From contig CAMJBH010000005.1 in the NCBI GenBank assembly GCA_946403855.1, positions 52,010 through 116,009 of the forward strand: DNA of 64,000 nt, read 5' to 3'. Shown here in pieces: positions 783 through 61,253 of this stretch (its first letter is position 1; every line of letters begins with the position of its first letter). The stretch is from an uncultured Bacteroidales bacterium. Its GTDB lineage: Bacteria > Bacteroidota > Bacteroidia > Bacteroidales > UBA932. The position numbers were made by a program, and so were the translations under genes. The notes beneath the pieces are model-generated. The model did no database searches. It saw only the letters and a program-made list of their open reading frames with translations, and was not told where the DNA came from.

Positions 783-1619
783 TTATACTATGGTGACGTA
801 GTTCCCTACGAGCGCGGACAGCTCCCAATAGGAAGCGTCAAGGCTCCGGATGCAGAGGTACGTCACGCCGTTTTCAGAGTAGTATTTGCCCTGCACCAGC
901 TCCATGCCTACGGAATACTGGATAGGGTTGTCGATAGTCCCCTCTTCGGCGCTGGCCGCTACCTTGACGTACAGGCTGGCGGCGGTGTCCGGGGTCCAAT
1001 CCTTCTGCACAATGTGGGGCTGGCGGACCTTGTACAGGTCGCCGTCGTACCAGAGGCGACGGCCCTCGGTGACTTTCTGGCCGATGAGGTTGCCCCAGGC
1101 GGGGAAGAGCGCCGGTGTCTGGGCCGCTTCTTCGTCCGGCAGGTCCCCGGCAGATTCGCCGACGAACTCCCGCACCTGCGACATCACGTCGTGAATCGCC
1201 GGGGCAGTCTTCGGGGTCGGCTCCAGGTCCTCGGGCGTGCCGCCGGCGGCGATGCTCTCCTGTAGCTTGACGATATGGGTGCGGGCGTACTCCAGAAGAG
1301 AATCCGCAAGGCTCTTGGCGTACCTGCGCCACTCCTGGAATGTCTCGAACTCGGCGACCTCCTGCTTTCCGGCGGGGTTGTCGAGGTAGTTGTTAATCAG
1401 GGCCTCCACCTTGTCTGCGGGGTAGTATAGCCGGATAATCTCGTTCACCAGAATCGAGCGGTTCCACTCAGCAGGGGGAAGGGTGATGCTCAACCAGCGG
1501 TACTCGCCCTCGTTATCCGTGTCGTTTTTAGCTATCATGACGTTCACCGTCGCTATTTTCTGCCCGTATTTCGTCACTATGGTGACAGGGTCAGGCTGCT
1601 CTCCGTAATTCCAATTCAT
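783..1619 (-). CDS. Phage tail/fibre-associated protein with CBM5/12-like carbohydrate-binding segment
   Basis: 278 aa; C-terminal segment GRRLWYDGDLYKVRQPHIVQKDWTPDTAASLYVKV resembles the chitin-binding (CBM5/12-like) fold common in phage tail proteins. Confidence 0.6.
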   Translation of the reverse strand: MNWNYGEQPDPVTIVTKYGQKIATVNVMIAKNDTDNEGEYRWLSITLPPAEWNRSILVNEIIRLYYPADKVEALINNYLDNPAGKQEVAEFETFQEWRRYAKSLADSLLEYARTHIVKLQESIAAGGTPEDLEPTPKTAPAIHDVMSQVREFVGESAGDLPDEEAAQTPALFPAWGNLIGQKVTEGRRLWYDGDLYKVRQPHIVQKDWTPDTAASLYVKVAASAEEGTIDNPIQYSVGMELVQGKYYSENGVTYLCIRSLDASYWELSALVGNYVTIV

Positions 1620-2973
1620 ATTCGTAGTGTTTGAAAATGACGTTATCGTATCTGTGTTGGGGTTTGACGTGGACCACCAGCGCCCGCCGGGTGACGGAGC
1701 AATAGCGGTAGAAGTAATGCAGGGAGGCGAGCGGCTTTGTCCTGACGTTGTAGCTGTAGGCGTGGCTCATCAGCCCCAGATAGGAGTTGATGCCGTTCAC
1801 CGCGTGCTCAAGGTCGCGGGACAGCTCCAGGTCCATGCCCTTCTCCGCAATCCGCCTGCAAATCTTCTCGGCCCGGTGCAGGGTCTCAAGGTAGTGGCCG
1901 CGTGTGGTGTTCGATATGTACTTGCGCCCGGGCCGCAGGGACATGCCCACATAGTTCATCCCCTTGCGGGCCTCCTGTATATAGAACTTCTTTTCGTGCA
2001 GGTGCAGGCGAAGCTCCCGCCAGAGGAAATCCCGCGCAATGACCCTGAACGCCAGCAGGCGCTCCTTGCTCTGGTCCGCAGCCGGGAAGTCATCGACGAA
2101 CCGCTCATACTCGCCGCCGCTCTCCGCGAAGTAGGCTATCGCCATATCATCGAAGAAAGACATATAGAAGTTGGCGAGCAGCTGGCTGGTGAGGTTCCCT
2201 ATCGGCATTCCCACGTTGGGGTCCGAATCGAAGAGGCTCTTGCCCTTCGGCAGCTTCTCCCAGAGCGAGAGGTCGCCGGTGCGGACGCAGTTGTTCTGGG
2301 GGCAGTGGAAGACCGTTATCCGCGTCAGGTACAGCAGCGTCTCGATATCGTCGCCGGTGTAGTTCTCACGGATGAAAGGCTCCAGCTTGGCCCAGAGGAT
2401 GCGCTTGTCGATGCTCATAAAGAACGCCTGCACGTCGTACTTCGCAAGGTAGGCCATGCGCCTGTAGTCGGCGCTCACCCGGGCAATCTTATCCTGCATG
2501 GTCTCGATGGCCAGCAGGGTCCCGTAGCCCTTGCGGCAGTTGTACGAGACATTGCCCTGGGCGATGAAACGCGCCTCCAGAAGCGGGTTTATCCGTATGG
2601 CAATCCAATGCTGGACGATGCGGTCACGGAACGCCGCCGCGAATATCTCGCGGAGCCGGGGGCGCTTCACCACGAAGCAGGTGCTCGTGGACGGCTCGTA
2701 GGTCTGCGAATAGACCTCCCCGATAAGGTTGTACAGGTCCTCTTCATAGTCGATGCGGTACTCCCCGCACTGGGTTGAGGAAAGTTTCTTGTGTATGCAA
2801 TCGAGGTAGGCATCCACCCATCCCGCCACATCCTCATAATCAGTTGCGGCCCACGCCCGCACAGAGTTCTGGTTGTTCTTGTTGTTGTTGTTGACGTTGC
2901 CATTGGAAGCGTTGACGTTCCAGGCGTTGTTCTCGGAGTTCTCTGTGGAGGTAGCTTCGCACACTCGTGACAT
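1591..2973 (-). CDS. DGR reverse transcriptase (true start uncertain; ORF extends to 3093; a GTG start near 2829 would exclude the TR)
   Basis: RT motifs: KRPRLREIFAAAFRDRIVQHW, MPIGNLTSQLLANFYM, catalytic FVDD in EYERFVDDF, KKFYIQEARKGMNYVGMSL. Located beside TR, Avd and VR. Confidence 0.93.
   Translation of the reverse strand: MSRVCEATSTENSENNAWNVNASNGNVNNNNKNNQNSVRAWAATDYEDVAGWVDAYLDCIHKKLSSTQCGEYRIDYEEDLYNLIGEVYSQTYEPSTSTCFVVKRPRLREIFAAAFRDRIVQHWIAIRINPLLEARFIAQGNVSYNCRKGYGTLLAIETMQDKIARVSADYRRMAYLAKYDVQAFFMSIDKRILWAKLEPFIRENYTGDDIETLLYLTRITVFHCPQNNCVRTGDLSLWEKLPKGKSLFDSDPNVGMPIGNLTSQLLANFYMSFFDDMAIAYFAESGGEYERFVDDFPAADQSKERLLAFRVIARDFLWRELRLHLHEKKFYIQEARKGMNYVGMSLRPGRKYISNTTRGHYLETLHRAEKICRRIAEKGMDLELSRDLEHAVNGINSYLGLMSHAYSYNVRTKPLASLHYFYRYCSVTRRALVVHVKPQHRYDNVIFKHYEYELELRRAA
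2845..2951 (-). repeat. DGR template repeat (TR)
   Basis: 107-nt segment matching 3559-3665 and 40972-41078; all mismatches fall on T of the + strand (A of the coding strand); coding strand is AAC-rich (ENSENNAWNVNASNGNVNNNNKNNQNSVRAWAA). Confidence 0.96.
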
Positions 2974-3055
2974 AACTACGTTGTCCGGGGTGAGCCCGAG
3001 CAGCGCAGTGGTGCGACCATCTGATATCAATGAGGATAGACTAATCATAACAACC

Positions 3056-3451
3056 TTAATCATTATGAACATTAGTGGACCCTTCTGCGGCATTGACGCA
3101 CTGAATACCCTTCATAATGAATCCCGCCTGCGAGGCGATATCATGGAAGAGCTTCAGGGCGCGGGCGTACTGCTTCTTTGACACGACCTTACGACGAAGG
3201 AAGACACGGTAAATGGTCTTGACTTTCGACATCTTCAGCGCGAAAGCCTCCATACATTGAAGCTCATGCGCACCTTTTTGCTCCTTTTTAAGTGCGAGAT
3301 ACAGGAAATCGAGCGCGTCGTAGAGCGCATCCATAACCTTCTCGCCAGAAATGCGGTTTGGCAGGGACTTCGGGATACGTTCGACCAGCTCAAAGGTCAG
3401 TTCGAGCAGTTCTTCCGTCTTCCTGTAAATGGGTGCCTGCGCCGGTTGCAT
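3056..3451 (-). CDS. avd: DGR accessory variability determinant (Avd-like, four-helix bundle)
   Basis: 131 aa, helical and basic (IYRKTEELLELTFELVERIPKSLPNRISGEKVMDALYDALDFLYLALKKEQK...), located between VR1 and TR/RT as in the BPP-1 DGR layout. Confidence 0.88.
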   Translation of the reverse strand: MQPAQAPIYRKTEELLELTFELVERIPKSLPNRISGEKVMDALYDALDFLYLALKKEQKGAHELQCMEAFALKMSKVKTIYRVFLRRKVVSKKQYARALKLFHDIASQAGFIMKGIQCVNAAEGSTNVHND

Positions 3452-3515: not shown

Positions 3516-3539
3516 GCCCGCGTCGGAGACGACGCGGGC
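3516..3539 (-). promoter_or_regulatory. Hairpin/cruciform downstream of VR1 (10-bp stem, GAGA/TCTC tetraloop)
   Basis: GCCCGCGTCG-GAGA-CGACGCGGGC, 19 nt beyond the VR1 invariant end, matching the known DGR target-recognition hairpin type. Confidence 0.85.
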
Positions 3540-3552
3540 GACGGCCAAGATA

Positions 3553-6500
3553 TCAGAATGCGGCCCACGCCCGCACAGAGTACTGGTAGGACTTGCTGAC
3601 GTAGTAGACGACGCCACTGGAAGCGTAGACGCCCCAGGCGACGTTCTCGGAGTACTCTGTGGAGGACCAGTGGTAGGCGGTCGTTACGGTGTATATGCCA
3701 GCGTTGACTGCCATCTGGAAGGAGCCGTTCATGTTGTGCCAGACGAAGCGAGCCAGCTCACCTTCAGCAGGGAGGAACCAATGATGCGCCTTGAACTTGT
3801 CAGCCAGGACCTCACCGGCCTTGACCGTAGGCTCGTAGGCGTGGCAGAGGCTCGCGGCCGGGAAAAAGAACTGCTGGTACTTCGCGCCGGATTCGGCGGC
3901 GACAGCGGCCATGTTGTCCAGCAGTACCTGCATTTCGGTCTTATTCCCGACAATCATAGGCACCAGAGCGGCCATGTCCACGGCGCTGTCGGTCATCACG
4001 ATATCGCGGTGGTGGATAATCTTGATGGTGTTAACCAATCCCCACGGCACCATGTCGCCGACGGCGATGTGCAGGTCGTCGAAGTATTGGGAGTGCTGCT
4101 CATAGAGCGCCTGCGTCACCTCCGTATTGCCGATTTCCGCCAGAACATCGTTACCAGAGAACACCGCGAAGCCGTCGGGCTGGTTTTCGTCCAGATATCC
4201 CGCTTCCGTGGTGTAGGAAACGCCTCGCGTCGTCTTGTTTGTCAGGAACGGGTTATTGTAAGCGGAATACTCCGTGTCCTCCAGCGTCACGCCGGCCACG
4301 CCGTTTGAGGCATTGTTGTACAGGCCCCAATAATGGGAGGCCAAGACGGTGAGCGCCGCGCCTACGCCGTGCCGGGGATTGTTGGGGTCAACCCACGTCA
4401 CCTGCATGATGGGGGTCATCGCATCGTCGTAGTAGTCCAGTACCTGCCCGTTGGCATAAACAAGGTCTCCGACCTGCGGCATGTGCTCGTAGAAGGCGAC
4501 CTCGAAGGTGGCGGAGCGGACAGTCCCGGATGTGAGAGTGACCTGCACGGTGACGGTGGCCGTCGGGCCCACGTCCTCCGTGCTGACATTCTGCACAGAC
4601 ACTACGCCTGTCTTGGCGTTGATGGTCGCATAGGCGTTCGCGGATATCGACCAGGCGATAGACTTGAAGTTGTTGGCGTACTGGCTGTTCGGAATGAGCT
4701 GGAGCGGGTAGTTACCGGTGGCATCGAGGTAATGCTTGCCGTATATCTTCACGCTCGCAAGGTTGATATCCACATAGGTGATGTACAGGTCGTTCGTCGA
4801 ATCGTCCACGTCTCCCCAAGCGTCGATATACGCCTGCTTCGTGGCGAAGGTCACGCGGTTGTTGCCGGTGATGTCGATATGGCCCCGGAGGTCTGCGGAG
4901 AGGCTGGCGAGCCATGTCACCATACCCGCGCCGCTCAGGGTCCAGTCCACGCCGTCGATGCGCACGCCGCCAGTCAGCGGGGCTTCATCCTCGTAGCACT
5001 GCTGGATGATGGCCAGCGAGCTGATGTTGCCAGCAGCAGGCGCGACGATGCGGAGCGATTCAAGGAGGGTAGCCCCTTCGAGGGTCAGGGTGGCGAGGTT
5101 GGGCTGGTTCCCCACGGAAAGGTCGGTCAGGCCGGAGCCCAGCTGCACAGAGGTCAGCAGGCGGCTCTCCGGCAGAACGATGCCGTTGATGGAGGCACAG
5201 CCACGGATATCCACGGAGGCGAGGCGCACGCAGTCGGTGAGCCTGAGCGTGCCGCCGATGCGGCTACTCCCGTTGAGGTTGATGCTCTCCAGAAGCGGGG
5301 CGTTGAGCACCAGCGACGTGGGCCTGAAGTTCGGCTTGGTGGAATCCGTCGGCGATATGATGAGGTTCGTCAGGCGCTTGGCGGTAATCTGGCACTCGCG
5401 GCTGTCCTTGACGCTGATGTTCCCAAGGTTGCCCAGGGAGCGGTAGTAGTTGGTGCCGTAGAGGGCGCAGGCGGTGTCACCCTGCACGGGCGTTCCGCCG
5501 GTGAGGTCGAAGTTGACGGCCACGCCCGGCTTGCAGCGCTGGCGCAGCGCCTTGTTAGTCTGGCCGACACGACCGCCAGGCCACAGGTACTGATGGGGCA
5601 CAAGGCCGATGAACTGGATTTCGGACGAATTGCCCGCCACGTCGGTGGTCGCCTCGATACCCAGCAGGGCCGATGCGTCAGGCAGGCCGATGTTGCCGGA
5701 ACTGCCGGAAGAGACGGAGAAGTTGCCCCATTCCGCATAGCTGGCCAGCATCACCAGGCGGCGCTTCATATACTGGAGCTCGCTCTGGAGCTGGTCACCC
5801 ATCGACTGCGAGATAGGGCGCACGCCACGGTCAGAGACGAAGCCGATGCTCTCGGGGCCCTCGTAGCGGATGCGGGCGGTCTCGTTGTAAGCCACGGCGG
5901 GAATCCTCTTCTGGATGGAGAAGAAGTATTTCCAGATGCAGCCCCAGGGCGTAGGACGGTCGGCGCTATCAACCCAAGGTATGTTTTCCGTAGAGGATGC
6001 GAGCGAGGACATGGCCGTGAAGATGCTCTTGAACGTCTCGCGGATTTCGCCGGTCCCCTCGTACATGGCCTCGCAGGCGTTGAACAGGGCATTTGCGCCG
6101 CCCTCGTAGAGAGCGACCTGCGACCCTTCAGCGCACGGGTTCTGGCGGTCGATGTAGTAGGGCTTCGTCTGGAATCCGGAATTATCCGTCGCAAAGATGG
6201 TGTCCATGTCATCCTGCGAGAAGAACCACTTGAGCGTCGTCGGGTCAAGGGTGTAGTAGGTGTTCTTGGAACAGTTGTCGGAGCCAGCGATGAGCTGCTG
6301 GGTAAATGCGTAGTGGAACTTGAGGGAATCCACGTTGATGATATCGGCAGCGTTCTCGCGGGCGTGCTTGGCGATGGACGCGATAAAGGCGGCGTTCATG
6401 TCCTCCCACTCGCCCGGGTTGGCGGCAACGTCATCCGGGAACTCCGTGGAGAGGTTGCGCACCTCCGTCTGCTCGTTCACGTCGTCCCATCCTGCCTCCA

Positions 6501-9500
6501 CCCAGAGCTGGTCCACGAAGTCATAGCGGCGCAGCTTGTAGGCATCATCCCCGGCGGTACACCACCAGAGCCAATCACGTGCGGAGGTCTGCTGGTCCGA
6601 GGCCATGAAGCCGCCCGCGCCGGTCCAAGGGCCGACCCAGACCTTGATACGGGGATTATGGCGATAGAAGAAATTGATAAACTCCTTGATTTTTGCCTCG
6701 ACAGCGACGGATGGGCCCTTCAGGGACTTGGTTGTGCGCTGCATGTTGGCATCGAGCACGGCGAAATCCCGCGTCACGGTCTTGCAGCGGTCAAGGTCGA
6801 GGTTCACGGCCCCGTTGTACACCCAGCCCGCCACCTCGCCGTCTTCCTCTTCCACGGTGATGCGGTTGGACTGCCAGGGCACGCGCATATCGGTAAGGGG
6901 GAGGTTGTTGTCGGCTCCCTCAATCATGCAGAACATCGCATGGTCGTTTTTCTTGTAGCCCCACGTCGGGTCGTCCATCTTACCGGCCCCGAAGGTCATA
7001 GGCCCCTGGAAGACCGGCGCGGGCTCGTTGTCGGCCTGGGTGAAGTACAGGAAGAGCTCCTGGTACTTCGCCACCCTCGCCTTGCTGTTCTGCTGCTGGA
7101 TGGACGTAGCGCCCACGACGGCCCGGTGAAGGTCGTTATACAGGCGGCAGCTGCCCATGAGGTGCGACTGCATGGAGGATGCGTAGTTGATTTTGCCGAC
7201 GAGCTTCGTCGCGTAGGGCACGCCCGGGACGCTCTGGTACTGCGCACCGCGATACATGCCGTTCCCGTCAATCCAGCCGTCCACGACCTCGGCATAGCCG
7301 GGGTGCTCGACGCTCTCGGTCCAGCCGGTCACGTCCTGATGGATTCTTTCGATGGCAACAAGGATGGTGTCGGTCACGTCCTTGAGCTTCGTCTGGATAT
7401 TGGAGTAGTAGTAGGTGTTGGCGGTCGAACCCTGACGCGAAGCCTTCAGGCTCTTCGTCTCCTGGCAGATGGTCCCGGAGTGCTCGGGTATCTCATGGCC
7501 ACTCTCGTCGTACACGTGAATCTCCCACCAGCCGGACTGCTTGGCGGTCAGCTCGTGGTAAGGCTGGACACCGTGCCAGATGAGGACGTTCACGCCCTTC
7601 TGCTTGCACAGGTCGGCGCTCACAAGGCTGTTCGGGCCGAGGATGGCGTTGGCGCTGCGGAAGTCGTTCTTTTCCTGCGCCGTCGGCAGGGTAGCCACAT
7701 AGTCGTTGAGCACGTCGGCGCTGGTGAGGGCTCCGTTGTTGCCCTTATAGACGCGGATGCCGTAGATGTCGATATCTGCGGCGTGCTGGCCAATGACGAT
7801 GTTCCCGCCGTTGCGCCACCATTGCCCGGCCTCGGTCTCAAAGACAAACTCGCGGTTAATAACTCCGTTGATAAACACACGACACAGAGGCATGGCGCTA
7901 CCGCCAGCGGCCCCGGCGCGAAGCTGGGAAACGATGTTGATGGCGATGCGGACGCGCTCATCTTCCTGCCAGCGGAAATCCTGCGATTCCTCCGTTACCT
8001 TGGTCGCGGTCATAACAGCACCGACCAGCGGCTTCATCTTCAATCCGATGTAACCGGCGGCGCTGGCGTAGTTCTCAAGGGCCGTGATGCAGGGCGTATC
8101 CTCGTCGGTGATGTTGCGCACCTTCAGGTCCAGCTCAAGGGTGACGTTGGAGTTCGGATTACCGTTGAACGAATCCAGCCAGTCGTAGCCGAACGTCACT
8201 TTCTGGCCCGCCAGAAGACGCAGGACACGTTGGCCGTCCTCCGCTTCCAGCCAACCGTCGGTAAGCCACGAGAGGCCCTCGAAAGTGGCCGTTACGCCGT
8301 CGATGGTCTCCACGTTGTCAGTACCACCGGCATTCTTCGCGGAATTGTTGCGGGTCTTGGGATTCAGGACCCAATCGGCCCCGCCGGTGGGCGCGAACTT
8401 GTCGCTGTTATCCACGGTGATGGCCGTGCGGCTCCCGCTCTGCACGCCGTCCACGATGACGGAAAGGTAGGCGTACAGCGTATCGTTCACGCTGTCCTCA
8501 ATCTCCACGGTGGCGTTCTGGGCGTAGGACGTGCCCGGGACGGCCAGAATGGTCTCATCCATATAGACCTCGTTCCCGTTGTAGTCGGTGAGCTTGAAGC
8601 GCACGGGGACGGTCTCGCGCCCGGGTGCATAGACGGACCACGAGAAGAACTGCACCGGCACGTAGTTCTGCACGGAGGTGCGCAGGTTCTCGATGAGTAC
8701 AACAGGGTCGATGCTCGTACCAGCATCCACCACCACCTGATTGACGACATGCTCGCTCTCGATGGTCCCGCCGGACCCGCCAGCCGAGCAGGTAAGCCAC
8801 GCCTCGATGGTCTTTACGCCGGCGGTAAGGAGGCCGTAGATATCGCTGTCATCGTCGGCCTGACCGCGCCACGTCTGTAGCTCGCTGGTGTATTCGTTGG
8901 CCCCGATGTTGAACGTCTTGGTATAGGTTCCCCTGCTGCCGATGATGCTCACGTGGAGCTGCCGGGCGACGGAGCCTGTGAGAATATAGGCGAGCGGCAG
9001 GGCCGTCACCTGCGTAGCGTCGATGGCCGTGGAGTAATCCAGGGCGAACTCCAGCGTCAGGGTCGTGTAGATGATGTTGCTCCACGTAATCCAGGCGCTC
9101 GTCGCGGTGGAAAGGATATTGCCCTCTTCGTCTGTGACGGCGAAGCTGGCCCGGACGCGAATCTGCTGCGGGTTGGTGTTGGAGAAATACTTTCCGATGT
9201 CGAAGGTATCATACACCGTGTCGTTGGTCTCGCGGGACGTGATGGAATCCGTTCCCACGGTCTCCCATGTGGAACCGCCGTCAACGGAGCGCTGGAAGGT
9301 CAGGATGCCGGATATACCGGCGTTGATGAGCGTGCCGTTGTCGTTCTGGATGGAAGAGAACCGCAGGCCGGTGAGGTGGCGCTTCTCGACAGAGACAATC
9401 TGGTTAGAGACGGTCTCCGAGCACACGAGGCGGGCCGAATAGGTCACGCCGTGTTCCGTGCTGATGGGGATGGCGATGTCCTGGAGCAGCTTGCTGGCGT

Positions 9501-9780
9501 GGGTCGTTGGGTTCTCGACGTAGCTGTCATAATCCGCTTCCGTGGCGAAGCACCAGATATGATAAAACCCATCCTGCTGTTTGGCCTGCGGGATGGTGAT
9601 ATATCCGAACTTGGTGCCGAAGGTCGCCTTGATGAACGCCTCTACCGCGTCGCCGGAGAAAGGCAGGTTGTTCGCCGGGTCATTCTTCCAGCTCTGGGAC
9701 ATTGATGTGATGCTGTTGGGGCTTGTTCTTGCCATATAGTTGTGATTTAGTAGGGTTCTAAATTCCTTTCCAAGGGTCAT
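3553..9780 (-). CDS. DGR target protein 1: large phage tail/baseplate receptor-binding protein with C-terminal C-type-lectin (FGly/SUMF1-like) variable domain
   Basis: 2,075 aa in the tail module; C-terminus HHWFLPAEGELARFVWHNMNG...YHWSSTEYSENVAWGVYASSGVVYYVSKSYQYSVRAWAAF contains VR1. Confidence 0.85.
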   Translation of the reverse strand: MTLGKEFRTLLNHNYMARTSPNSITSMSQSWKNDPANNLPFSGDAVEAFIKATFGTKFGYITIPQAKQQDGFYHIWCFATEADYDSYVENPTTHASKLLQDIAIPISTEHGVTYSARLVCSETVSNQIVSVEKRHLTGLRFSSIQNDNGTLINAGISGILTFQRSVDGGSTWETVGTDSITSRETNDTVYDTFDIGKYFSNTNPQQIRVRASFAVTDEEGNILSTATSAWITWSNIIYTTLTLEFALDYSTAIDATQVTALPLAYILTGSVARQLHVSIIGSRGTYTKTFNIGANEYTSELQTWRGQADDDSDIYGLLTAGVKTIEAWLTCSAGGSGGTIESEHVVNQVVVDAGTSIDPVVLIENLRTSVQNYVPVQFFSWSVYAPGRETVPVRFKLTDYNGNEVYMDETILAVPGTSYAQNATVEIEDSVNDTLYAYLSVIVDGVQSGSRTAITVDNSDKFAPTGGADWVLNPKTRNNSAKNAGGTDNVETIDGVTATFEGLSWLTDGWLEAEDGQRVLRLLAGQKVTFGYDWLDSFNGNPNSNVTLELDLKVRNITDEDTPCITALENYASAAGYIGLKMKPLVGAVMTATKVTEESQDFRWQEDERVRIAINIVSQLRAGAAGGSAMPLCRVFINGVINREFVFETEAGQWWRNGGNIVIGQHAADIDIYGIRVYKGNNGALTSADVLNDYVATLPTAQEKNDFRSANAILGPNSLVSADLCKQKGVNVLIWHGVQPYHELTAKQSGWWEIHVYDESGHEIPEHSGTICQETKSLKASRQGSTANTYYYSNIQTKLKDVTDTILVAIERIHQDVTGWTESVEHPGYAEVVDGWIDGNGMYRGAQYQSVPGVPYATKLVGKINYASSMQSHLMGSCRLYNDLHRAVVGATSIQQQNSKARVAKYQELFLYFTQADNEPAPVFQGPMTFGAGKMDDPTWGYKKNDHAMFCMIEGADNNLPLTDMRVPWQSNRITVEEEDGEVAGWVYNGAVNLDLDRCKTVTRDFAVLDANMQRTTKSLKGPSVAVEAKIKEFINFFYRHNPRIKVWVGPWTGAGGFMASDQQTSARDWLWWCTAGDDAYKLRRYDFVDQLWVEAGWDDVNEQTEVRNLSTEFPDDVAANPGEWEDMNAAFIASIAKHARENAADIINVDSLKFHYAFTQQLIAGSDNCSKNTYYTLDPTTLKWFFSQDDMDTIFATDNSGFQTKPYYIDRQNPCAEGSQVALYEGGANALFNACEAMYEGTGEIRETFKSIFTAMSSLASSTENIPWVDSADRPTPWGCIWKYFFSIQKRIPAVAYNETARIRYEGPESIGFVSDRGVRPISQSMGDQLQSELQYMKRRLVMLASYAEWGNFSVSSGSSGNIGLPDASALLGIEATTDVAGNSSEIQFIGLVPHQYLWPGGRVGQTNKALRQRCKPGVAVNFDLTGGTPVQGDTACALYGTNYYRSLGNLGNISVKDSRECQITAKRLTNLIISPTDSTKPNFRPTSLVLNAPLLESINLNGSSRIGGTLRLTDCVRLASVDIRGCASINGIVLPESRLLTSVQLGSGLTDLSVGNQPNLATLTLEGATLLESLRIVAPAAGNISSLAIIQQCYEDEAPLTGGVRIDGVDWTLSGAGMVTWLASLSADLRGHIDITGNNRVTFATKQAYIDAWGDVDDSTNDLYITYVDINLASVKIYGKHYLDATGNYPLQLIPNSQYANNFKSIAWSISANAYATINAKTGVVSVQNVSTEDVGPTATVTVQVTLTSGTVRSATFEVAFYEHMPQVGDLVYANGQVLDYYDDAMTPIMQVTWVDPNNPRHGVGAALTVLASHYWGLYNNASNGVAGVTLEDTEYSAYNNPFLTNKTTRGVSYTTEAGYLDENQPDGFAVFSGNDVLAEIGNTEVTQALYEQHSQYFDDLHIAVGDMVPWGLVNTIKIIHHRDIVMTDSAVDMAALVPMIVGNKTEMQVLLDNMAAVAAESGAKYQQFFFPAASLCHAYEPTVKAGEVLADKFKAHHWFLPAEGELARFVWHNMNGSFQMAVNAGIYTVTTAYHWSSTEYSENVAWGVYASSGVVYYVSKSYQYSVRAWAAF
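3559..3665 (-). repeat. DGR variable repeat 1 (VR1), 3' end of the 2,075-aa gene
   Basis: 107-nt alignment to TR with 18 differences, all at TR adenines (coding strand); no other substitutions. Confidence 0.96.
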
Positions 9781-34761: not shown

Positions 34762-36345
34762 TTACGATGCTATGCGGTTGATTTCGTAAGCCAGTGAGGC
34801 GCACAGGGCGCAGGCGACGTGCGTCTCCACGGCGTTTCCGATGTATTTCTTCTGTTCCGTCTGTGTGCCCACCAGAACGTAGGTGTCCGGGAAGCCCATG
34901 ATGCGCTTCAGCTCTTGGATTTTGAGCATACGCATACAGATGTCGCTGATACCATACAGGGCCATGAACTCCTTTATCTTGACGGTCATCGGGCTGTCGG
35001 TCTCATAGACAACGATGCAAGGCTCCCCGTCCGTGGTACTGACCAGGTACGGCGGGCGCTTGTCCATGCGGGCGATGAGGGTGAAGCAAGGCTTGTCAAT
35101 CGACGCGCCAGCGGATTCAAACTGCGGGTTCATCAGGAACTTCGCAGAAACGAGATTCAGCTTCGGGTTGGTCGTGACCGTTCCGGCCGGCCGGTCCAGA
35201 GAAGCTGACGTGCCGGTCCCGTACTGCTTATCCAGGAACTGCGCATTTACATACCCGAGCCGGTCCTTCGTGGTGACGGTTGGGGCCGGTGCCTCGATTG
35301 AGTGATTATGTCCGTTCCCATAGTAGGCGGTAATAAAGGCGTGATGGTCGCGTGTGTTGATGGCTCCAGCAGGGCCGTCCACGGTGATATTATTGTCGTA
35401 GGTGGAGCCTGAATACTGCTTCGACAGGAAGCTGACCTTGGCAAGGCCGAGGCGGTTCTGGGCGGCGACCACCGGGCAGGGCGCATCAATGCTGGGCGCA
35501 TGGTACACACCCTTGCGGCTCATAGAGTTCCACTTGATAAGGAAAGCATCTTTGCCACCGGCGACAAACTTCACCAGGCCGGCATAAATGCGCTGGAGGG
35601 TCTTTTCGGACAGCGGCTTGTCGCGGAAGATGCTGTTGCCGCAGTCGTCAAGGTCCAGGACTTCGCGCACGGGCTTCCATGAATCCACCCCGCCGAAGAG
35701 GTCGCTTCCTGCGGTCTTGCTGTGCGTAGGCTCTGGGAATACGATGGGCAGGCCCTTGCGGGCGAAGATGCCAAAGAACCGCTCTCGGGAGGTGTAAGCG
35801 CCATAGTCGGCGGCATTCAGGATTCGGCGCTGGAAGTCGTAGCCGCGCTGGCAGACGTTTCGCACCCAGCGGAGATACAGCCGCCCGGCATCCTTGCTCA
35901 CCGGCTTGCCGTTCGCATCGAGGTCGCCCCACATCATAAACTCGCGGACGTTCTCAATCTGGATATAGTCGGGCTTAAGCGCGTCAATGTAACGGAAAAG
36001 ATGCTCGGCGAGGGTCCGGCTGTCAGCGTCCCGGGGCTGGCCACCTTTTGCCCGGCTGAAATTTGTACATTCCAGCGAGGCCCAAAGTACCAGGAGCGCA
36101 CCGGGGTTCTCTGCCCTCTTTCTGGCCGTGTGCTCCACAAGGGTAGTCAGGTCCAGCGTGCGGATATCTTCGGTGTAGTGCTTGGCCTCCGGATGGTTCG
36201 CAAGATGGGAGGCTATGGCGTGCGGGTCGTGGTTCACGCAGGCGATGACGTGGGCGCATTTCTGGCCGTCGAGCGTCGCAGATTCTACGCCGGTTGAAGT
36301 ACCACCAGCCCCGCAAAATAGGTCTATGTAAAGCAGCTTTTTCAT
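34762..36345 (-). CDS. DNA (cytosine-5) methyltransferase
   Basis: YIDLFCGAGGTSTGVESA (motif I), QIENVREF (ENV motif), C-terminal IMGFPDTYVLVGTQTEQKKYIGNAVETHVA. Confidence 0.9.
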   Translation of the reverse strand: MKKLLYIDLFCGAGGTSTGVESATLDGQKCAHVIACVNHDPHAIASHLANHPEAKHYTEDIRTLDLTTLVEHTARKRAENPGALLVLWASLECTNFSRAKGGQPRDADSRTLAEHLFRYIDALKPDYIQIENVREFMMWGDLDANGKPVSKDAGRLYLRWVRNVCQRGYDFQRRILNAADYGAYTSRERFFGIFARKGLPIVFPEPTHSKTAGSDLFGGVDSWKPVREVLDLDDCGNSIFRDKPLSEKTLQRIYAGLVKFVAGGKDAFLIKWNSMSRKGVYHAPSIDAPCPVVAAQNRLGLAKVSFLSKQYSGSTYDNNITVDGPAGAINTRDHHAFITAYYGNGHNHSIEAPAPTVTTKDRLGYVNAQFLDKQYGTGTSASLDRPAGTVTTNPKLNLVSAKFLMNPQFESAGASIDKPCFTLIARMDKRPPYLVSTTDGEPCIVVYETDSPMTVKIKEFMALYGISDICMRMLKIQELKRIMGFPDTYVLVGTQTEQKKYIGNAVETHVACALCASLAYEINRIAS

Positions 36346-36456
36346 ACACTCCTTGTTATCAGGCAATAGCCATATTCGATTGGTTTAGAGCAGTCCCCCC
36401 CCCCCCCACGGTTGTACCAGCGGCAGCAGAGGCACAGGTTTTTCGGCTTACTCATC
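36343..36456 (-). CDS. Tiny Cys-rich ORF (37 aa) containing a G13 tract, stop overlaps methyltransferase start
   Basis: MSKPKNLCLCCRWYNRGGGGDCSKPIEYGYCLITRSV read from the reverse complement; TGA overlaps ATGA of the methyltransferase. Confidence 0.55.
36395..36407. repeat. Homopolymer C13/G13 tract
   Basis: Thirteen consecutive C on the + strand. Confidence 0.95.
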
Positions 36457-37915: not shown

Positions 37916-40558
37916 CTATTTGGTTTTGTTGATGATATCCAAGGTGTCCGGGTCCAGCTCGATTTCGATAGGCTCTTCCTCCGGCGGGTTCTGGCGCTCA
38001 TCGTCCAGAAGGTCGAACAGGGTCGGCGAGAGCTGCGCCTGTTCTGCTTCGCGCAGGTATTCGAGGCCGTCCCTCCAGTAGTCGTGATTCAGTTCCGTAG
38101 AGAGGCCCCTGCGGCCCATCTTTACGGCGCAGTATGGTACGGTGGCGATGCCGCCGAACGGGTCGAAAACGAGGTCGCCCTTGTTGGAATAGCGCTCAAT
38201 CAGCCGCTCAACGAGGTCCAGCTGAAGGGGGCAGACGTGCATCTGGAGGGCCTTCTGGCTCTGGCGCGAGTTGAGGGTACGGAAGCGCAGAATGTCGTCC
38301 CAGATGTAGTCCTTATGGCTGGCCGGGTCCACGGCCATGAACGTCTTCGGCAGGCGACCGTAAGCCTCCAGCTCTTCCGCAAAGGCCACATGGTCCTCGT
38401 AGCTGTACAGGTGCTCGGCGCTGAACTTGCGGAAGATGCGACGGATGCCGTCGATATCCATGCCCCGCACATCGTCGAAGGACAGAAGCCGGTTGCCGCT
38501 GCTCTTCCAGTCGGCGTGCGCGTCAATCTGCCAGCGGGCGAGGCTGTAGTCTTCCTTACGCTTGGTTACGGGAACGTCGGCGTAGGCCCGGGAGGTGTCC
38601 GTGGGCAGCTTGCGGAACAGCAGGACATATTCAGGACAGCCGATGCCCATCTTGGTGCCGTCCTTGCGCATTTCGGTATAGCCCAGCCTGTAGGTCTGGT
38701 TGTTTTCCCTCACCACGTCGGTGTCAACGGTGATGCGCCCCATGTAGCGGAAGCCGTGACGGATATAGTGGAACACGCACATATCGCTGAAGGGGTCGAT
38801 GGTCGGCATTCCGTCGCCGGTGGCGTTCCCGAACAGCACGCGGTCCTTGACATGGACGCAGAGCAACCGGCCCGGGCGCAGGACGCGCATCAGCTCCGGG
38901 GTCAGGAAGTCCATCTGCTTGAAAAATTCGTCGTTGTCGGTATTGAAGCCGAAATCGTTGTAGCTGGCCGTGTACTCGTAGTGATTGGAAAACGGAACCG
39001 AGGTCACGATGAGGTCCACCGAATCAGGCTCCATATTCCGGCACTCCAGTACGTTGTCATTGTTGATGGCCCGGTAGAGCTCGCCCTTCTGCTCTTCCCT
39101 CTGGGAGAACATGTAGCGCATCAGCTTCTGCTTCACGTCGAGGCCGAAAAGGCCGTATTCCCGCACGATGCCCGCCATCTTCTCCACGGTCTCGTTGTGC
39201 TGCCGCCACTTCTCCATGAAACTCTTGTAGATTTCCTGCTCGCTCTCAGCATAGACGAGGTACAGGTCCACGGGGTACTGCTGCATGAAGCGGTGGATGC
39301 GGGCGACAGCCTGGAACTTGTCATTGAAGCGGTAGTCGATGAACATGATGGCCTTGTGGCAGTGGTATTGGAAGTTCAGGCCCTCGCCCAGCATTTCGGG
39401 CTTGGCCGCAAGGTACTTGAGCCGTCCTTCCTTGAAGTCCAGCACTATCTGGTCGGCTTCGTCTTCGTCCTGGGAGCCATAGACGGCCTTGCAGCCGGGT
39501 ATGGCCTTGCAGAGGGCGTGGCGCTCATCTTCGAGGTCGTGCCAAAGGAGGAAATGGTCGTCTTTGTTCTCGGGCCGGTTGATGATTTCGACCACGCGGG
39601 CAATCTTCTCCGGCATACTATCGCGGCGTTCCTTCGCGGCTGCGTTGAGGCCCAGGGCGGCATCACGAAACATCTTCATCTGGCCGTCCTGGTCCACGCC
39701 TGCGGAAAGGTGGTCCACGCTCACGACTTCTTCATGCACGCGCAGCTCCGGGAGCTGGTAGCCGTCATCTGGATATCCGAGGTCGGAGGGCTTGGTGAGG
39801 AAGAGCGCCCACGTGGCGACCCACAGCCAGAACTCCTGTTCTTTGTTGGGGTACAGGGTCAGGTTGTTGGCCTTGGTGCTGTCGCGCTTGAAGAAGCGGG
39901 TGAGCGCCTGCCCGGTGTCCATCACGCCCAGATAGCCGCTGTAGTGGATTAGCTCTTTCAGGCGGTTCGGTGACGGGGTGGCCGTGGCGACAAAGCGGTA
40001 CTTCACGCCTGCGAACAAGGGAAGGAACTCTTGGAAGGTCTTGGTGCCATAACCACGGAGCACCGAAGCCTCGTCAAGGGACGTGGCGGTGAAATAGTCC
40101 GGGTCAATGCGCACGCCATCCTCCCCGTCCCGGACGCGCTCATAGTTCGTCACCATGATGGGCGTGGGGCAGGCTTTCACTTCCTGCATCGTCCTGACGT
40201 AGTGGACTTCCATATCAAGCCAGCGTTTCGACTGCTCGATGAACTCGACCACCACGCGCTTGGGGCAGACAATCAGCCCGTAGCCGCCCTCGTGGGCAAG
40301 GATGATGCGCAGAATCTCCAGCTGGGTGACGGTCTTCTGCATTCCGAAGGAACTGAATATAGCCCGTCGCCCCCCCCTAACGGCCCATTTCACGGTGTCC
40401 TTCACGTGCGGGAACAGCGAAGGTGTCAGCTCTTCGTCTGCGACCTCGAAGCCGCTCTGCGAGCTGATGGCCATCTTGTTTTCGAGGAACTCAATGTATT
40501 TGTCTCTTTTCTTCATTTCGGTTGTGTTAAATTTCCCAAGGGAAAGGCTTGTCTGCAT
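37916..40558 (-). CDS. SNF2/DEAD-like helicase fused to DNA (N4/N6) methyltransferase
   Basis: N-term IFSSFGMQKTVTQLE, LIVCPKRVVVEF, TSLDEASVLRG, FVATATPSPN (helicase motifs); C-term DLIVTSVPFSNHYEY and DLVFDPFGGIATVPYCAVKMGRRGLSTELN (methyltransferase motifs). Confidence 0.85.
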   Translation of the reverse strand: MQTSLSLGKFNTTEMKKRDKYIEFLENKMAISSQSGFEVADEELTPSLFPHVKDTVKWAVRGGRRAIFSSFGMQKTVTQLEILRIILAHEGGYGLIVCPKRVVVEFIEQSKRWLDMEVHYVRTMQEVKACPTPIMVTNYERVRDGEDGVRIDPDYFTATSLDEASVLRGYGTKTFQEFLPLFAGVKYRFVATATPSPNRLKELIHYSGYLGVMDTGQALTRFFKRDSTKANNLTLYPNKEQEFWLWVATWALFLTKPSDLGYPDDGYQLPELRVHEEVVSVDHLSAGVDQDGQMKMFRDAALGLNAAAKERRDSMPEKIARVVEIINRPENKDDHFLLWHDLEDERHALCKAIPGCKAVYGSQDEDEADQIVLDFKEGRLKYLAAKPEMLGEGLNFQYHCHKAIMFIDYRFNDKFQAVARIHRFMQQYPVDLYLVYAESEQEIYKSFMEKWRQHNETVEKMAGIVREYGLFGLDVKQKLMRYMFSQREEQKGELYRAINNDNVLECRNMEPDSVDLIVTSVPFSNHYEYTASYNDFGFNTDNDEFFKQMDFLTPELMRVLRPGRLLCVHVKDRVLFGNATGDGMPTIDPFSDMCVFHYIRHGFRYMGRITVDTDVVRENNQTYRLGYTEMRKDGTKMGIGCPEYVLLFRKLPTDTSRAYADVPVTKRKEDYSLARWQIDAHADWKSSGNRLLSFDDVRGMDIDGIRRIFRKFSAEHLYSYEDHVAFAEELEAYGRLPKTFMAVDPASHKDYIWDDILRFRTLNSRQSQKALQMHVCPLQLDLVERLIERYSNKGDLVFDPFGGIATVPYCAVKMGRRGLSTELNHDYWRDGLEYLREAEQAQLSPTLFDLLDDERQNPPEEEPIEIELDPDTLDIINKTK
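40380..40387. repeat. Homopolymer C8/G8 tract within the helicase-methyltransferase CDS
   Basis: Eight C on + strand; encodes VRGGRRA on the minus strand. Confidence 0.9.
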
Positions 40559-40910
40559 CCGGATTCTTGAACTGCTTGCATCCTTCGACTATCGAGGGCA
40601 TCTTCTGCCAGTCTTCGTCGTCGATGTTTCGCAAATGCTCTTTCTTCCATTCGGCACAGAGCGGGGTAAAGAGAAAGCATTTCCTTGCCTCACACTTGCG
40701 CTTCGGGACCTTGCTTGAGCGGTAGTCGTCCAGCCACACCTCTTGCTTTTCCCCGGTGTCGGAATAGTTCACGCAGAAGTCCCAGCATTGCGGCTTGTTT
40801 TCAGGGTTCGAGTGGCAGACGCGCTCATGCCTGGATAGCGCACCGGCATTGAGCGATACCTTTCCGCAGTGCTCACACTGATAAACCTTTATGCCTGTTA
40901 GCGTTTTCAT
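40527..40910 (-). CDS. Hypothetical protein with C2H2-like zinc finger
   Basis: YQCEHCGKVSLNAGALSRHERVCHSN at N-terminus. Confidence 0.6.
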   Translation of the reverse strand: MKTLTGIKVYQCEHCGKVSLNAGALSRHERVCHSNPENKPQCWDFCVNYSDTGEKQEVWLDDYRSSKVPKRKCEARKCFLFTPLCAEWKKEHLRNIDDEDWQKMPSIVEGCKQFKNPDADKPFPWEI

Positions 40911-40925: not shown

Positions 40926-40949
40926 GCCGGGGTCGGAGACGACCCCGGC
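40926..40949 (-). promoter_or_regulatory. Hairpin/cruciform downstream of VR2 (10-bp stem, GAGA/TCTC tetraloop)
   Basis: GCCGGGGTCG-GAGA-CGACCCCGGC, 22 nt beyond the VR2 invariant end; same loop as the VR1 hairpin, different stem. Confidence 0.85.
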
Positions 40950-40962
40950 GATATGTCAAAAA

Positions 40963-41538
40963 TTACTTAGATGCGGCCCACGCCCGCACAGAGCCCTGGA
41001 CGCCCTTGCCGTAGCTGCCGACGTAGCCACTGGAAGCGCGGACGACCCAGGCGCCGTACTCGGAGCCCTCTGTGGAGGTCCAGTACCACTTATCGAGCTC
41101 TTCGCCGCCGTTCTCGCGCAGGAGCCGGTTGATTTCATCTTTGAAGAAGAGGATGATATACCACTCATCGCGGGAAGGTGCGCCCTCTTTGACGGCTTTG
41201 TCCCAGTTCACTTCCGCACCGTTGAAGCTGTCCTGCATGGCGAGGTACTTGCCCACGACGGGCACGTAGATGCCATTTCCTTCGACGTAGCGGGGCTTGA
41301 GGTCCAGGGGTTCGGGGAGTGGCGGAACGGTGACGGAAGCCTTATTGACCCAATCAATGAACGGCTTTTCGTCGAAGGGTAAATCTTCGCCGTTCAGGAA
41401 CTTGATAAGGCTTTCCTTGATGTCTTCCTCGGTCAGTTGGCGGTTGGCATTGAAAAGCTCGCGGAACTTCTCTTTGTCCTTCTCATCTGCGTTCTGGTAA
41501 GCCGCAAACAGGGCTTCGGGGGTGATTTCTTTTTTCAT
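40963..41538 (-). CDS. DGR target protein 2 (191 aa, C-terminal C-type-lectin-like variable domain)
   Basis: ...WYWTSTEGSEYGAWVVRASSGYVGSYGKGVQGSVRAWAASK contains VR2; N-terminus unrelated to target 1. Confidence 0.9.
   Translation of the reverse strand: MKKEITPEALFAAYQNADEKDKEKFRELFNANRQLTEEDIKESLIKFLNGEDLPFDEKPFIDWVNKASVTVPPLPEPLDLKPRYVEGNGIYVPVVGKYLAMQDSFNGAEVNWDKAVKEGAPSRDEWYIILFFKDEINRLLRENGGEELDKWYWTSTEGSEYGAWVVRASSGYVGSYGKGVQGSVRAWAASK
40972..41078 (-). repeat. DGR variable repeat 2 (VR2), 3' end of the 191-aa gene
   Basis: 107-nt alignment to TR with 23 differences, all at TR adenines. Confidence 0.96.
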
Positions 41539-41569: not shown

Positions 41570-42082
41570 TCAGAAGGGGAGGTCATCTGTCGGCGGGTCG
41601 GTGAAGCCAGCGGGCGCGGCCTGCTGGGCCATCTGGGAAACGCTCTGCGGGGTGAACTGCGGCTGTGCCGGTGCGGCGGTAGGTTGGCCGTACTGCTGGC
41701 GCTGCTCGCTCATCTGGCGGGCGGTGTTTATCATTCCGGCGGCTTGGAGTTCCTGCCTGGAGCCACACAGCTGGAGGTTCTGGACCACGACCTCGGTAGT
41801 CCATTTCCGCTGTCCGTTCTGCTCGTATTCGCGTGTGCGCAGCTTGCCGATGATGCAGACCTGCGTACCCTTGTGGACGTAGTTTTCCGTGACGGTGGCG
41901 AAGGTGCCAAAGGCGACGATGCTGTGCCATTCGGTCGTTTCCTGACGCTGGCCCTGCTTGTCCTTGTAGTATTCGGTGGTGGCGAGGGAGAACATCGCCA
42001 CCTTGCTGTTGTTTTCGAGGTAGCGGACCGTCGGCTCCTTGCCGACGTTTCCGAGAAGCATTACCTGATTGATGCTTGCCAT
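41570..42082 (-). CDS. ssb: Single-stranded DNA-binding protein
   Basis: MASINQVMLLGNVGKEPTVRYLENNSKVAMFSLATTEYYKDKQGQRQETTEWHSIVAFG...; C-term DDLPF. Confidence 0.95.
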   Translation of the reverse strand: MASINQVMLLGNVGKEPTVRYLENNSKVAMFSLATTEYYKDKQGQRQETTEWHSIVAFGTFATVTENYVHKGTQVCIIGKLRTREYEQNGQRKWTTEVVVQNLQLCGSRQELQAAGMINTARQMSEQRQQYGQPTAAPAQPQFTPQSVSQMAQQAAPAGFTDPPTDDLPF

Positions 42083-42096
42083 TGTTGCGGTGTGTT

Positions 42097-42369
42097 TTAA
42101 TCTGTTTCCTGTTCAGGGAAGAGGGTGGAGGACGGGGCCTGCGGCTCTTCCAAAAGTTCGTAGTAGGTATCGTTGAGCGTCTTGCCGGTCCTGATGCGGC
42201 CCAGATTTTCCAGTTCTCGGGCCGTTTCGGGCAGTCTGGCGCTGTTTTCGGGCTTCAGGCGTGGAATTACCCAGACGGACAGGCCGAACGTCGGGAAGCG
42301 GCGTTTTTCGGTCCTCTCGCGCCTGATGTCTTCAAGCGCCTGGAGCAGTTCTGTCTGTTGCGGTGTCAT
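42097..42369 (-). CDS. Hypothetical phage protein
   Basis: 90-aa ORF in operon. Confidence 0.5.
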   Translation of the reverse strand: MTPQQTELLQALEDIRRERTEKRRFPTFGLSVWVIPRLKPENSARLPETARELENLGRIRTGKTLNDTYYELLEEPQAPSSTLFPEQETD

Positions 42370-43358
42370 TTGAATGATGCGCGGGGCATTATCTTGTTGG
42401 AAAACTCTATCTTCAGCTTGGGGTTGATGGCGTTGCGGACGATGGCCGCGCCGGTTTCATCTTCCTTGAAGTAGGCGACCAGACCCTTGGGGTAGTGCAG
42501 TACCACGGTGTCGGAGCCTTGCAGGAACTCGATGCCGTTGCGGTCGTCGATGCAGAGCGGGGCGAGGTCCGGGCGCAGCTTCAGCAGGTCGTCGTAAATC
42601 TGCCGGAGGACGGAAATGTATTTGTCGCGGTCCTTGGGGCAGCGGTCGTCCTGTGCCCACATGCCAGCGAGCGCGAGCCGCTGGGCCGGGGTGTCGAAAA
42701 CTACGTCGCCGGAGCGCCAGCCCTTGCCCTGATTCTTCCTGATGAACTTCTCAACCTCTTTGGCCGGTCGCCAGATATTCGCCCAATAGAAGGAGGCGAG
42801 GAAGGCGGAACGCTCGCTCTGCTGCTGCTCTTCGGGCAGCGCCAGAAAGTCAACCTTCTCGCGTGCGTGCGCGGGGGCGTGCGGAATATTATTATTAAGA
42901 ACAGTTGTTGTTATTGTTGTAATACCTTCTTCCCTTTTAATACCTTCTTCCCCTTCTTTTGCTATTGTGCCTGTTGTTTGATTGTTGATTGATTGTTGTC
43001 CGTTTGTTGCTGGATTGTTATTTGATTGTTGGGCGCTCTCTTCCTTTGCTTGGTAACTCTCGAAATTACAGATAGTTATAATTGTGTATTTGTTTGTTGT
43101 TTGCCTGTTGATTATCTGCGAATTTTCAAGCCGTGCAAGGGCGGTGCGTAGATTCTGGGCTGTTAGATTGGTCTTTTCGGAAAGTTCAGCTACCGTGGTG
43201 GCGAGCTGGCCGCGCTCCAGGACAATGCCCCTCCACTTCCGCTGCTCGATGCTGGCAGACAGAAGCAGATAGACGAACAGCTGCACCATCTTGGAATCGG
43301 TGAACCATTCCCAGTCCAGAAACTTCCGGTAGAGCTTTATCCAACCGCCTACAGACAT
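42366..43358 (-). CDS. Phage replication initiator/replisome organiser-like protein
   Basis: MSVGGWIKLYRKFLDWEWFTDSKMVQLFVYLLLSAS...RGQLATTVAELSEKTNLTAQNLRTALARLENSQII (winged-helix N-terminus). Confidence 0.75.
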   Translation of the reverse strand: MSVGGWIKLYRKFLDWEWFTDSKMVQLFVYLLLSASIEQRKWRGIVLERGQLATTVAELSEKTNLTAQNLRTALARLENSQIINRQTTNKYTIITICNFESYQAKEESAQQSNNNPATNGQQSINNQTTGTIAKEGEEGIKREEGITTITTTVLNNNIPHAPAHAREKVDFLALPEEQQQSERSAFLASFYWANIWRPAKEVEKFIRKNQGKGWRSGDVVFDTPAQRLALAGMWAQDDRCPKDRDKYISVLRQIYDDLLKLRPDLAPLCIDDRNGIEFLQGSDTVVLHYPKGLVAYFKEDETGAAIVRNAINPKLKIEFSNKIMPRASFK

Positions 43359-43539: not shown

Positions 43540-44484
43540 CTACTTCTTCAGGAGGAAACGACGGTCGCCGGGGCCGGTCTTGGTGAACTCTTCTGCCATC
43601 TTCGGGTGCTTGGCGGCGAAGCCGTCGAGGTCGAAGAAAGTCTTGTCCTTGCTGGACTTCCACGTGGCGAGGGTCAGGCCCTTGTAGGTCAGGACCTCGG
43701 CATCACCCATGAAGAGCTTCAGCTTGTCGGCCAGCTCGCTGGAAGCGTCCTTGGCGGCTTTCTCTGCGGCCTTGGCCTCGACCAGCTGGGCGGCGACGGT
43801 CGAAATCTCTTCGGTGGCCTCGATGCTCTTGCCCTTCGCGGAGCGGGGTGCGCGAATCATCACGTCTTCCACGCTCATATTTTCAGGCACAGCGTCGCCG
43901 ATGATGTAGTCGGTCCAGAACTTATCGACCTCTTCGAGCATGAACTTGAAGAAATCGGAATCGAAATCGTAGTTGACAAAGCCGAAGTCGCGGCCCTGCG
44001 TGAGCCAGGCGAGCGCCCCGGTGTCCTTCTCTGCGGTTCCAAGCTGCCACTGGAGCTGACAATACCAGTGCTGCGGTATGCTGTCGGCATCGACGGGCAG
44101 CTGCGTTGTCTTGCATTCCAGTATGCCCTTGTTAGCCTCGTTGCGGGTCATGTTGGGCAACCAGAAGGTGCGGTCAGGCGACACACGCAGGTACTCGCGC
44201 AGGCTGTTCACGATAAGGAAGTCTTCGGCGCTGCGCTTGATGATTTCAACGCCCGTGGAATCGGCGTAGAAACGCGCCACGGCATCTTCGAGGTAGTGCC
44301 CGGCCTTCATATAGAAGTTCTCTTCCTTGGGCGGGTCTATGCCCTTCTTGCGCCTCCAGAGCTGGTAAGGGGTTTCCCAGGGGTTAGCCCCCAGGATGGT
44401 GCCGACTTCGGAAGAGCCTATGCCCCCCTTGCGGCCTTCGAGCCATTCTGCCCGGTCCTTGTAACGAATAATTTGTACACTCAT
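43540..44484 (-). CDS. YqaJ-type viral recombinase/exonuclease
   Basis: GRKGGIGSSEVGTILGANPWETPYQLWRRKKG, GILECKTTQLP (E-x-K), PQHWYCQLQWQL. Confidence 0.88.
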   Translation of the reverse strand: MSVQIIRYKDRAEWLEGRKGGIGSSEVGTILGANPWETPYQLWRRKKGIDPPKEENFYMKAGHYLEDAVARFYADSTGVEIIKRSAEDFLIVNSLREYLRVSPDRTFWLPNMTRNEANKGILECKTTQLPVDADSIPQHWYCQLQWQLGTAEKDTGALAWLTQGRDFGFVNYDFDSDFFKFMLEEVDKFWTDYIIGDAVPENMSVEDVMIRAPRSAKGKSIEATEEISTVAAQLVEAKAAEKAAKDASSELADKLKLFMGDAEVLTYKGLTLATWKSSKDKTFFDLDGFAAKHPKMAEEFTKTGPGDRRFLLKK

Positions 44485-61083: not shown

Positions 61084-61253
61084 CCTTCGGCTAAGTTCTG
61101 CCCCCCGCAGCTTGGCTGCGGCCCCTTAGGGGCTGACGAATTCATCCGTCAATAGCCTTCGGCTAAGTTCTGCCCCCCGCAGCTTGGCTGCGGCCCCTTA
61201 GGGGCTGACGAATTCATCCGTCAATAGCCTTCGGCTAAGTTCTGCCCCCCGCA
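61063..61253. repeat. Tandem direct repeat, period 72 bp, about 2.6 copies
   Basis: GACGAATTC[CA]T[TC]CGTCAATAGCCTTCGGCTAAGTTCTGCCCCCCGCAGCTTGGCTGCGGCCCCTTAGGGGCT starts at 61063, 61135 and 61207. Confidence 0.93.

Follow-up and report, generated by a model that had tools for sequence, protein, structure and literature searches.

In the stretch of DNA analysed here (the window, 64,000 nucleotides from an uncultured gut Bacteroidales bacterium) there is a prophage in which one retroelement (DGR) has two targets. Its single template repeat (TR) has one variable counterpart at the end of a tail protein gene (VR1, target 1) and another one (VR2) at the end of a small gene 38.1 kb from the cassette, outside the structural module (target 2, gene 2). 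The mismatches between the TR and either VR are found exclusively at TR adenines, and both VRs have recently changed at such adenines only. We think that the best explanation of the whole is one DGR which rewrites both the tail protein and an intracellular C-lectin binder, and we consider it fairly probable; for the retroelement part of this explanation, we are nearly certain.

The cassette and its two targets

The features discussed here are collected in Table 1. RT, Avd and the TR are clustered at 1591-3451. The RT motifs IGNLTSQ and FVDD can be read in the open frame, and the RT domain starts near residue 94; since the TR sits within this frame, the true start of the RT is uncertain. The typical components of a DGR are therefore present, namely a TR/VR pair that differs at A only, a DGR-type RT adjoining the TR, and Avd. 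Across the entire assembly (G000, 1.95 Mb, 82% complete), the only full-length copies of the repeat were three in number, the TR, VR1 and VR2 themselves.

Table 1. Positions of the DGR components, hairpins and neighbouring genes in the window.
Feature	Position	Strand	Remarks
DGR reverse transcriptase (RT) ORF	1591..3093	-	500 aa as open frame; Pfam RVT_1 6e-8, PHROG RT 1e-59
Template repeat (TR)	2845..2951	-	107 nt, 36 A
Avd accessory protein	3056..3451	-	131 aa; PHROG 'Avd protein of DGR' 1e-7, Pfam bAvd 1e-4 (below curated cut-off)
Hairpin after VR1	3516..3539	-	10-bp stem, sense loop TCTC (GAGA on the other strand), 19 nt past VR
Target 1	3553..9780	-	2075 aa; tail end of structural module, VR1 at 3' end
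VR1	3559..3665	-	18/18 mismatches to TR at TR A
C5-cytosine DNA methyltransferase	34762..36366	-	Pfam DNA_methylase 4e-28, PHROG 2e-78
SNF2-type helicase fused to N6/N4 DNA methyltransferase	37916..40558	-	Pfam N6_N4_Mtase 6e-15, PHROG helicase 1e-111
Zinc-finger protein	40527..40910	-	directly downstream of target 2; weak Pfam zinc-finger matches
Hairpin after VR2	40926..40949	-	10-bp stem, loop and inner 4 bp as in VR1 hairpin, 22 nt past VR
Target 2 (gene 2)	40963..41538	-	191 aa; predicted helical N-terminal part and C-lectin-like C-terminal domain
VR2	40972..41078	-	23/23 mismatches to TR at TR A
SSB	41570..42082	-	directly upstream of target 2; Pfam SSB 1.4e-30
DnaD-like helicase loader	42366..43358	-	PHROG 2e-27
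YqaJ-type recombinase/exonuclease	43540..44484	-	Pfam YqaJ 1e-20

A preliminary description of this DNA had reported a gapless alignment of VR2 to the TR in which each of the 23 mismatches falls at a TR adenine, and our re-alignment gave the same values: read in the sense of the minus strand, the ungapped alignment has 84 identities in 107 positions and 23 mismatches, with none outside TR adenines. Given 36 A in 107 TR bases, the chance of such an outcome is 1.3e-11. The reading frame of gene 2 is intact, and VR2 forms its 3' end. In a BLASTP comparison with target 1, only the VR-encoded stretch and a few further residues were aligned, so the statement that target 2 is unlike the tail protein outside the variable domain holds.

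The location beside SSB and recombination genes was also as described. SSB ends 31 bp before target 2, the DnaD-like loader and YqaJ lie further upstream, and both methyltransferase genes are found downstream on the same strand. In this connection, the preliminary description had mentioned neither the methyltransferases nor the hairpins after the VRs. A second VR which is remote, non-structural in its location and has methyltransferases as neighbours is the arrangement of the Quimbyvirus and Bacuni type. Target 2 had furthermore been called early-expressed. The gene content of this early-type neighbourhood suggests as much; on the other hand, the structural and the replication genes of the prophage share one strand, which weakens this part of the claim. 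Elsewhere in the window, a host oxidoreductase gene has a perfect 17-bp inverted repeat at its end (61052-61089), which is probably a terminator.

The fold of target 2 is less clear than its location. The only Pfam match of gene 2 is a sub-threshold one to Lcl_C (0.0076), which is also matched by 8 of 9 relatives, and a profile of nine relatives matches PDB 8q4e, described as the Legionella Lcl C-terminal domain (E 1.7e-6). The AlphaFold model is poor (mean pLDDT 52.6) and has a helical N-terminal part and a mixed alpha/beta C-terminal domain. Its fold-search matches are non-significant (best E 0.13); the top two, an InvE adhesin and the Lcl C-terminal domain, would fit a lectin-like fold. Because the model is poor, the C-lectin assignment made in the preliminary description rests on the weak Lcl_C matches and the non-significant structural match to Lcl, and we keep it as a prediction. 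For the N-terminal part there was no convincing match among solved structures, and this domain was not found in any other protein of the phages examined.

Recent change and recurrence of the second VR

When viral and genome collections were searched with patterns for gene 2, there were no matches, probably because the protein evolves fast. The methyltransferase next to it is conserved and served as bait instead; of the loci retrieved with this bait, most had no gene 2 relative in their flanks. In the annotated phage collection there was no close relative of the window phage DNA. Through the bait we did, however, find a sister of the window prophage in a second genome from the goat gut (L177, JAFPWG010000011.1, G150:C13). 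This sister is 94-99% identical to the window over the aligned prophage blocks; these blocks end near window position 48.3 kb. The RT, SSB, TerL and methyltransferase proteins of the sisters are 99-100% identical, with 99-99.9% for RT, SSB and methyltransferase, and their TRs are identical, yet VR1 differs at 17 positions and VR2 at 14, every one of them a TR adenine (17/17 and 14/14). Both VRs must have been rewritten since these prophages diverged. VR2 is thus, as far as such a comparison of sequences can tell, a genuine and recently used target of the DGR, which agrees with the earlier claim of a second, actively diversified target: between independent genomes the stretch at 40972-41078 is not identical, and it contains no mismatch at a position other than A.

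Just outside the VR, the C-lectin core of gene 2 has 98% DNA identity between the sisters, whereas the N-terminal part (first 240 nt) has only 53% (window 40963-41538 against L177 9024-9596). This difference suggests that the N-terminal part was exchanged too, and gene 2 would apparently vary by domain exchange in addition to mutation by the retroelement. As a separate observation, the DnaD-like loader is only 82% identical at the protein level between the sisters, with neighbours at 99%.

The layout recurs. In total, 13 prophages or phages have a second VR at a distance of 6-41 kb; of their 222 VR2 mismatches, 215 fall on TR adenines, and the reading frames of the second-VR targets are intact. 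Five further dual-VR prophages come from the host genus (G048, G032, G065, G054 and G051), found with a TR/VR finder in 150 related genomes. Additional systems were found in IMG/VR, GTDB genomes and GenBank phages, namely G150, G151-G154, L089 and Bacuni F1/F2/F4. Within the host genus we examined 13 DGR cassettes (the window included). In 6 of them a second VR lies at a distance of 5.7-38 kb, and among the remaining ones several are on short contigs; the statement that remote targets are less common should accordingly be softened.

In most of these systems, genes for replication, methyltransferases or anti-restriction adjoin the remote target, with G051 as an ambiguous case. We see SSB and the helicase-methyltransferase in the window and G048, a DnaG-like primase in G032, a DnaG primase and an endonuclease VII/Lar-like protein in G054, a polynucleotide kinase in G065, and DNA polymerase A with a C5-methyltransferase in Bacuni F1. 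In the IMG/VR phage L089 (positions 1-108, 814-929 and 9433-9548), the remote target lies 47 bp past an anti-restriction gene. All of these neighbourhoods, including those of the other Bacuni phages, were found without the methyltransferase as bait. Note that the methyltransferase adjacency in G151-G154 is not independent evidence, since the methyltransferase was the bait by which these were found.

Several of these genomes deserve a separate remark. The helicase-methyltransferase of G151:C1 is 86% identical to that of the window while terminase (29%) and portal (38%) are distant, which indicates movement of the early module between phages that are otherwise distant. In G153:C17 the remote VR (37048-37172) and the TR have opposite orientations, so that a shared strand would not be needed for retrohoming there. 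The RT matches of G013:C1 (521992-523065) and G051:C152 (7742-8854) contain in-frame stops (2 TAG, 1 TAA), which suggests decay or recoding; the VRs look A-mutated. Finally, Bacteroides phage BS-TP1 (PQ571274, 77864-80613) has a relative of the remote-target family near an RT-like gene, and the finder detected no TR/VR pair in it.

Earlier publications already describe second targets that are remote and lie near counter-defence genes, in Quimbyviridae, Bacuni phages and gut prophages. According to Benler et al. 2021 (PMC8008677), Quimbyviridae have one cassette and two C-lectin targets and resemble the window in this, with the C-lectin fold of the window's target 2 being a prediction. Their second target is distal, was judged to be non-structural and has methyltransferases, a nuclease and a tRNA ligase in its vicinity. 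By the same text, their RT is divided between three frames, and their target 2 reads from the opposite strand; in the window, the RT occupies a single frame and target 2, next to SSB, is encoded on the same strand. Bacuni phages of Bacteroides uniformis were likewise reported to have a distant VR (PMC8143477). We compared the genomes of F1, F2 and F4 (MT635598, MT806186, MT806185), in which, much as in the window, a DUF1566-type target with the remote VR adjoins the genes for DNA polymerase A and a C5-methyltransferase. To this target gene 2 is detectably related (41.5% identity over 65 aa, 1e-10). Unlike the window, these are isolated phages with the remote VR 12.6 kb away, hairpin loops GAAA/GCAA and a different N-terminal domain. 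Four more gut prophages with a distal second VR near counter-defence genes are described in the accessible part of Dahlman et al. 2025 (PMC12629997), and they are like the window by that description rather than by sequence. Tentaclin phages nd4/nd12 also combine one TR with two unrelated C-lectin targets (PMC10743442), but both targets are in the same cassette, and tentaclins have an N-terminal C-lectin domain followed by Ig-like domains; in target 2 the VR is C-terminal, and we found no Ig-like domain. A large metagenome survey states that its own method would miss remote targets (PMC8144416). Our analysis adds four things to these reports: the sister prophages show that both VRs changed recently, the layout recurs in a dozen systems or more, the N-terminal domain has apparently been exchanged, and the hairpins match within phages.

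Hairpins downstream of the VRs

Each of the two VRs in the window is followed by a hairpin with a perfect, GC-rich stem, and there are no others of that sequence in the window. No hairpin is found downstream of the TR, so the window has the DGR hallmark of a hairpin after the VR that is absent at the TR. In Bordetella phage BPP-1, the hairpin lies 4-34 bp past the VR, has a stem of 7-10 bp and a 4-nt loop, and is required for homing; hairpin and IMH transplanted together suffice to retarget homing (Guo et al. 2011, PMC3240598). The window shares with BPP-1 the TR, VR, RT, Avd, a target that has the VR at its 3' end (with a C-lectin fold that in the window is predicted) and the GC-rich hairpin after the VR. 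On the other hand, BPP-1 has one target and a GRNA loop on the sense strand, whereas the window has two targets and lacks a sense-strand GRNA loop; GRNA is the published consensus of phage DGRs and not a defining trait of all DGRs. The accessible text on Quimbyviridae (PMC8008677) does not mention hairpins after the VRs, which the window does have.

By analogy with BPP-1, retrohoming would proceed as follows. RNA of the TR would be reverse transcribed by the RT with Avd, and adenines would be randomised in this step. Any VR with the shared 3' end and, downstream, a cognate hairpin would then receive a copy of the cDNA in trans, and one template could in this way serve both the tail protein and the small C-lectin protein.

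We compared the hairpins of VR1 and VR2 in 12 independent dual-VR phages, with the core defined as the loop and 4 nt on each side. The mean edit distance of the cores is 1.75 within and 7.4 between phages, and none of 50,000 permutations reached the observed match, also after omitting three phages with near-identical flanks. The cores match (distance 0-3) in 10 of the 12 phages, the exceptions being G151 and G032, and no comparable hairpins were found at the TRs of the dual-VR phages. Since the spacer is also more alike within than between phages, shared descent of the 3' flank contributes to this match. In the window, however, the spacers differ and the outer stem has two compensated pair changes; such compensating changes, which are also seen in G153, argue for selection that keeps the structure, the inner stem and the loop.

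Two simpler accounts of the hairpins were considered. Terminators would not be expected to have matching loops, and neither window hairpin has a T run after it. Recent duplication alone partly explains the match in G051, G048 and G065, but the match persists without them and the outer stems are compensated. In a limited literature search, we found no earlier report of hairpins after VRs that match within a phage.

Where the second target may act

In the explanation that we prefer, target 2 would be a hypervariable binder inside the cell; the factor that it recognises would belong to the host and be variable itself, and most likely it would be a protein of defence. Its intracellular place is suggested by the location of the gene, by the hydropathy profile, in which we see no signal peptide, export signal or transmembrane-like segment, and by the pattern in the Bacuni phages. 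The idea that target 2 may be host-exposed, which the preliminary description had also put forward, is not supported. For a counter-defence role as such, the arguments seem to us about evenly balanced.

Could target 2 instead be a second receptor-binding or decoration protein of the virion, with both VRs serving adsorption and the gene lying in the replication region by coincidence? Phage C-lectin DGR targets are mostly receptor-binding, there are adhesin-like proteins within the Lcl_C/DUF1566 family, and virion proteins normally have no signal peptide either. Against this, the genes that surround remote targets in unrelated phages are those of replication, methylation and anti-restriction, and target 2 has a short helical N-terminus but neither a tail-docking nor a fibre domain. 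The nearly identical genomes of the Bacuni phages are also of interest here. F1 and F2 share a host and differ at 16 positions in the remote VR target and at 1 in the near one, while F1 and F4, which have different hosts, differ at 18 positions in the near target and at 0 in the remote one (hosts as in PMC8143477). The difference in host tracks the near VR and not the remote one, a pattern that, in these three genomes, fits a remote target which would not determine adsorption. We therefore regard a role in the virion as unlikely. A role in the lysogen rather than in lytic growth, such as superinfection exclusion or the sensing of phages that enter the cell, seems to us decidedly unlikely as well. 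Target 2 is indeed carried in prophages, bacterial DGR targets are linked to conflict systems in the accessible part of PMC10907252, and hypervariable binding would suit the recognition of varied competing phages; but the gene is in the replication operon behind SSB and not near a repressor, and its product has no membrane anchor or signal.

It could also be that VR2 is a passenger, i.e. a duplicate competent for homing that has no selected role. Such a duplication predicts that the hairpin and part of the spacer resemble those of VR1, and in several phages they do. Intact frames in 13 phages, a C-lectin core that is 98% identical between the sisters, repeated occurrence on different proteins and the compensating stem changes make this very improbable. 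An artefact of assembly or chance is hardly worth considering: the host assembly is fragmented and 82% complete, but the same arrangement is present in the sister genome, the isolated Bacuni phages and 10 other records, and the probability of the mismatch pattern by chance is about 1e-11.

One may extend the preferred explanation to an intracellular, antibody-like repertoire against host defences, in which a hairpin address specific to the element would be read by the cognate RT, Avd and TR RNA. We put this forward only tentatively, and with more doubt than belief. The matched hairpins nevertheless provide a simple rule for finding more targets and a direct hypothesis of how a DGR picks the genes that it mutates.

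Phage DGRs are usually explained as devices for receptor switching. A second target that recurs in the replication and methylation module would mean that the same machine diversifies something besides receptor binding, and with 13 dual-VR phages, among them a sister pair and a trio of isolates, this question becomes testable.
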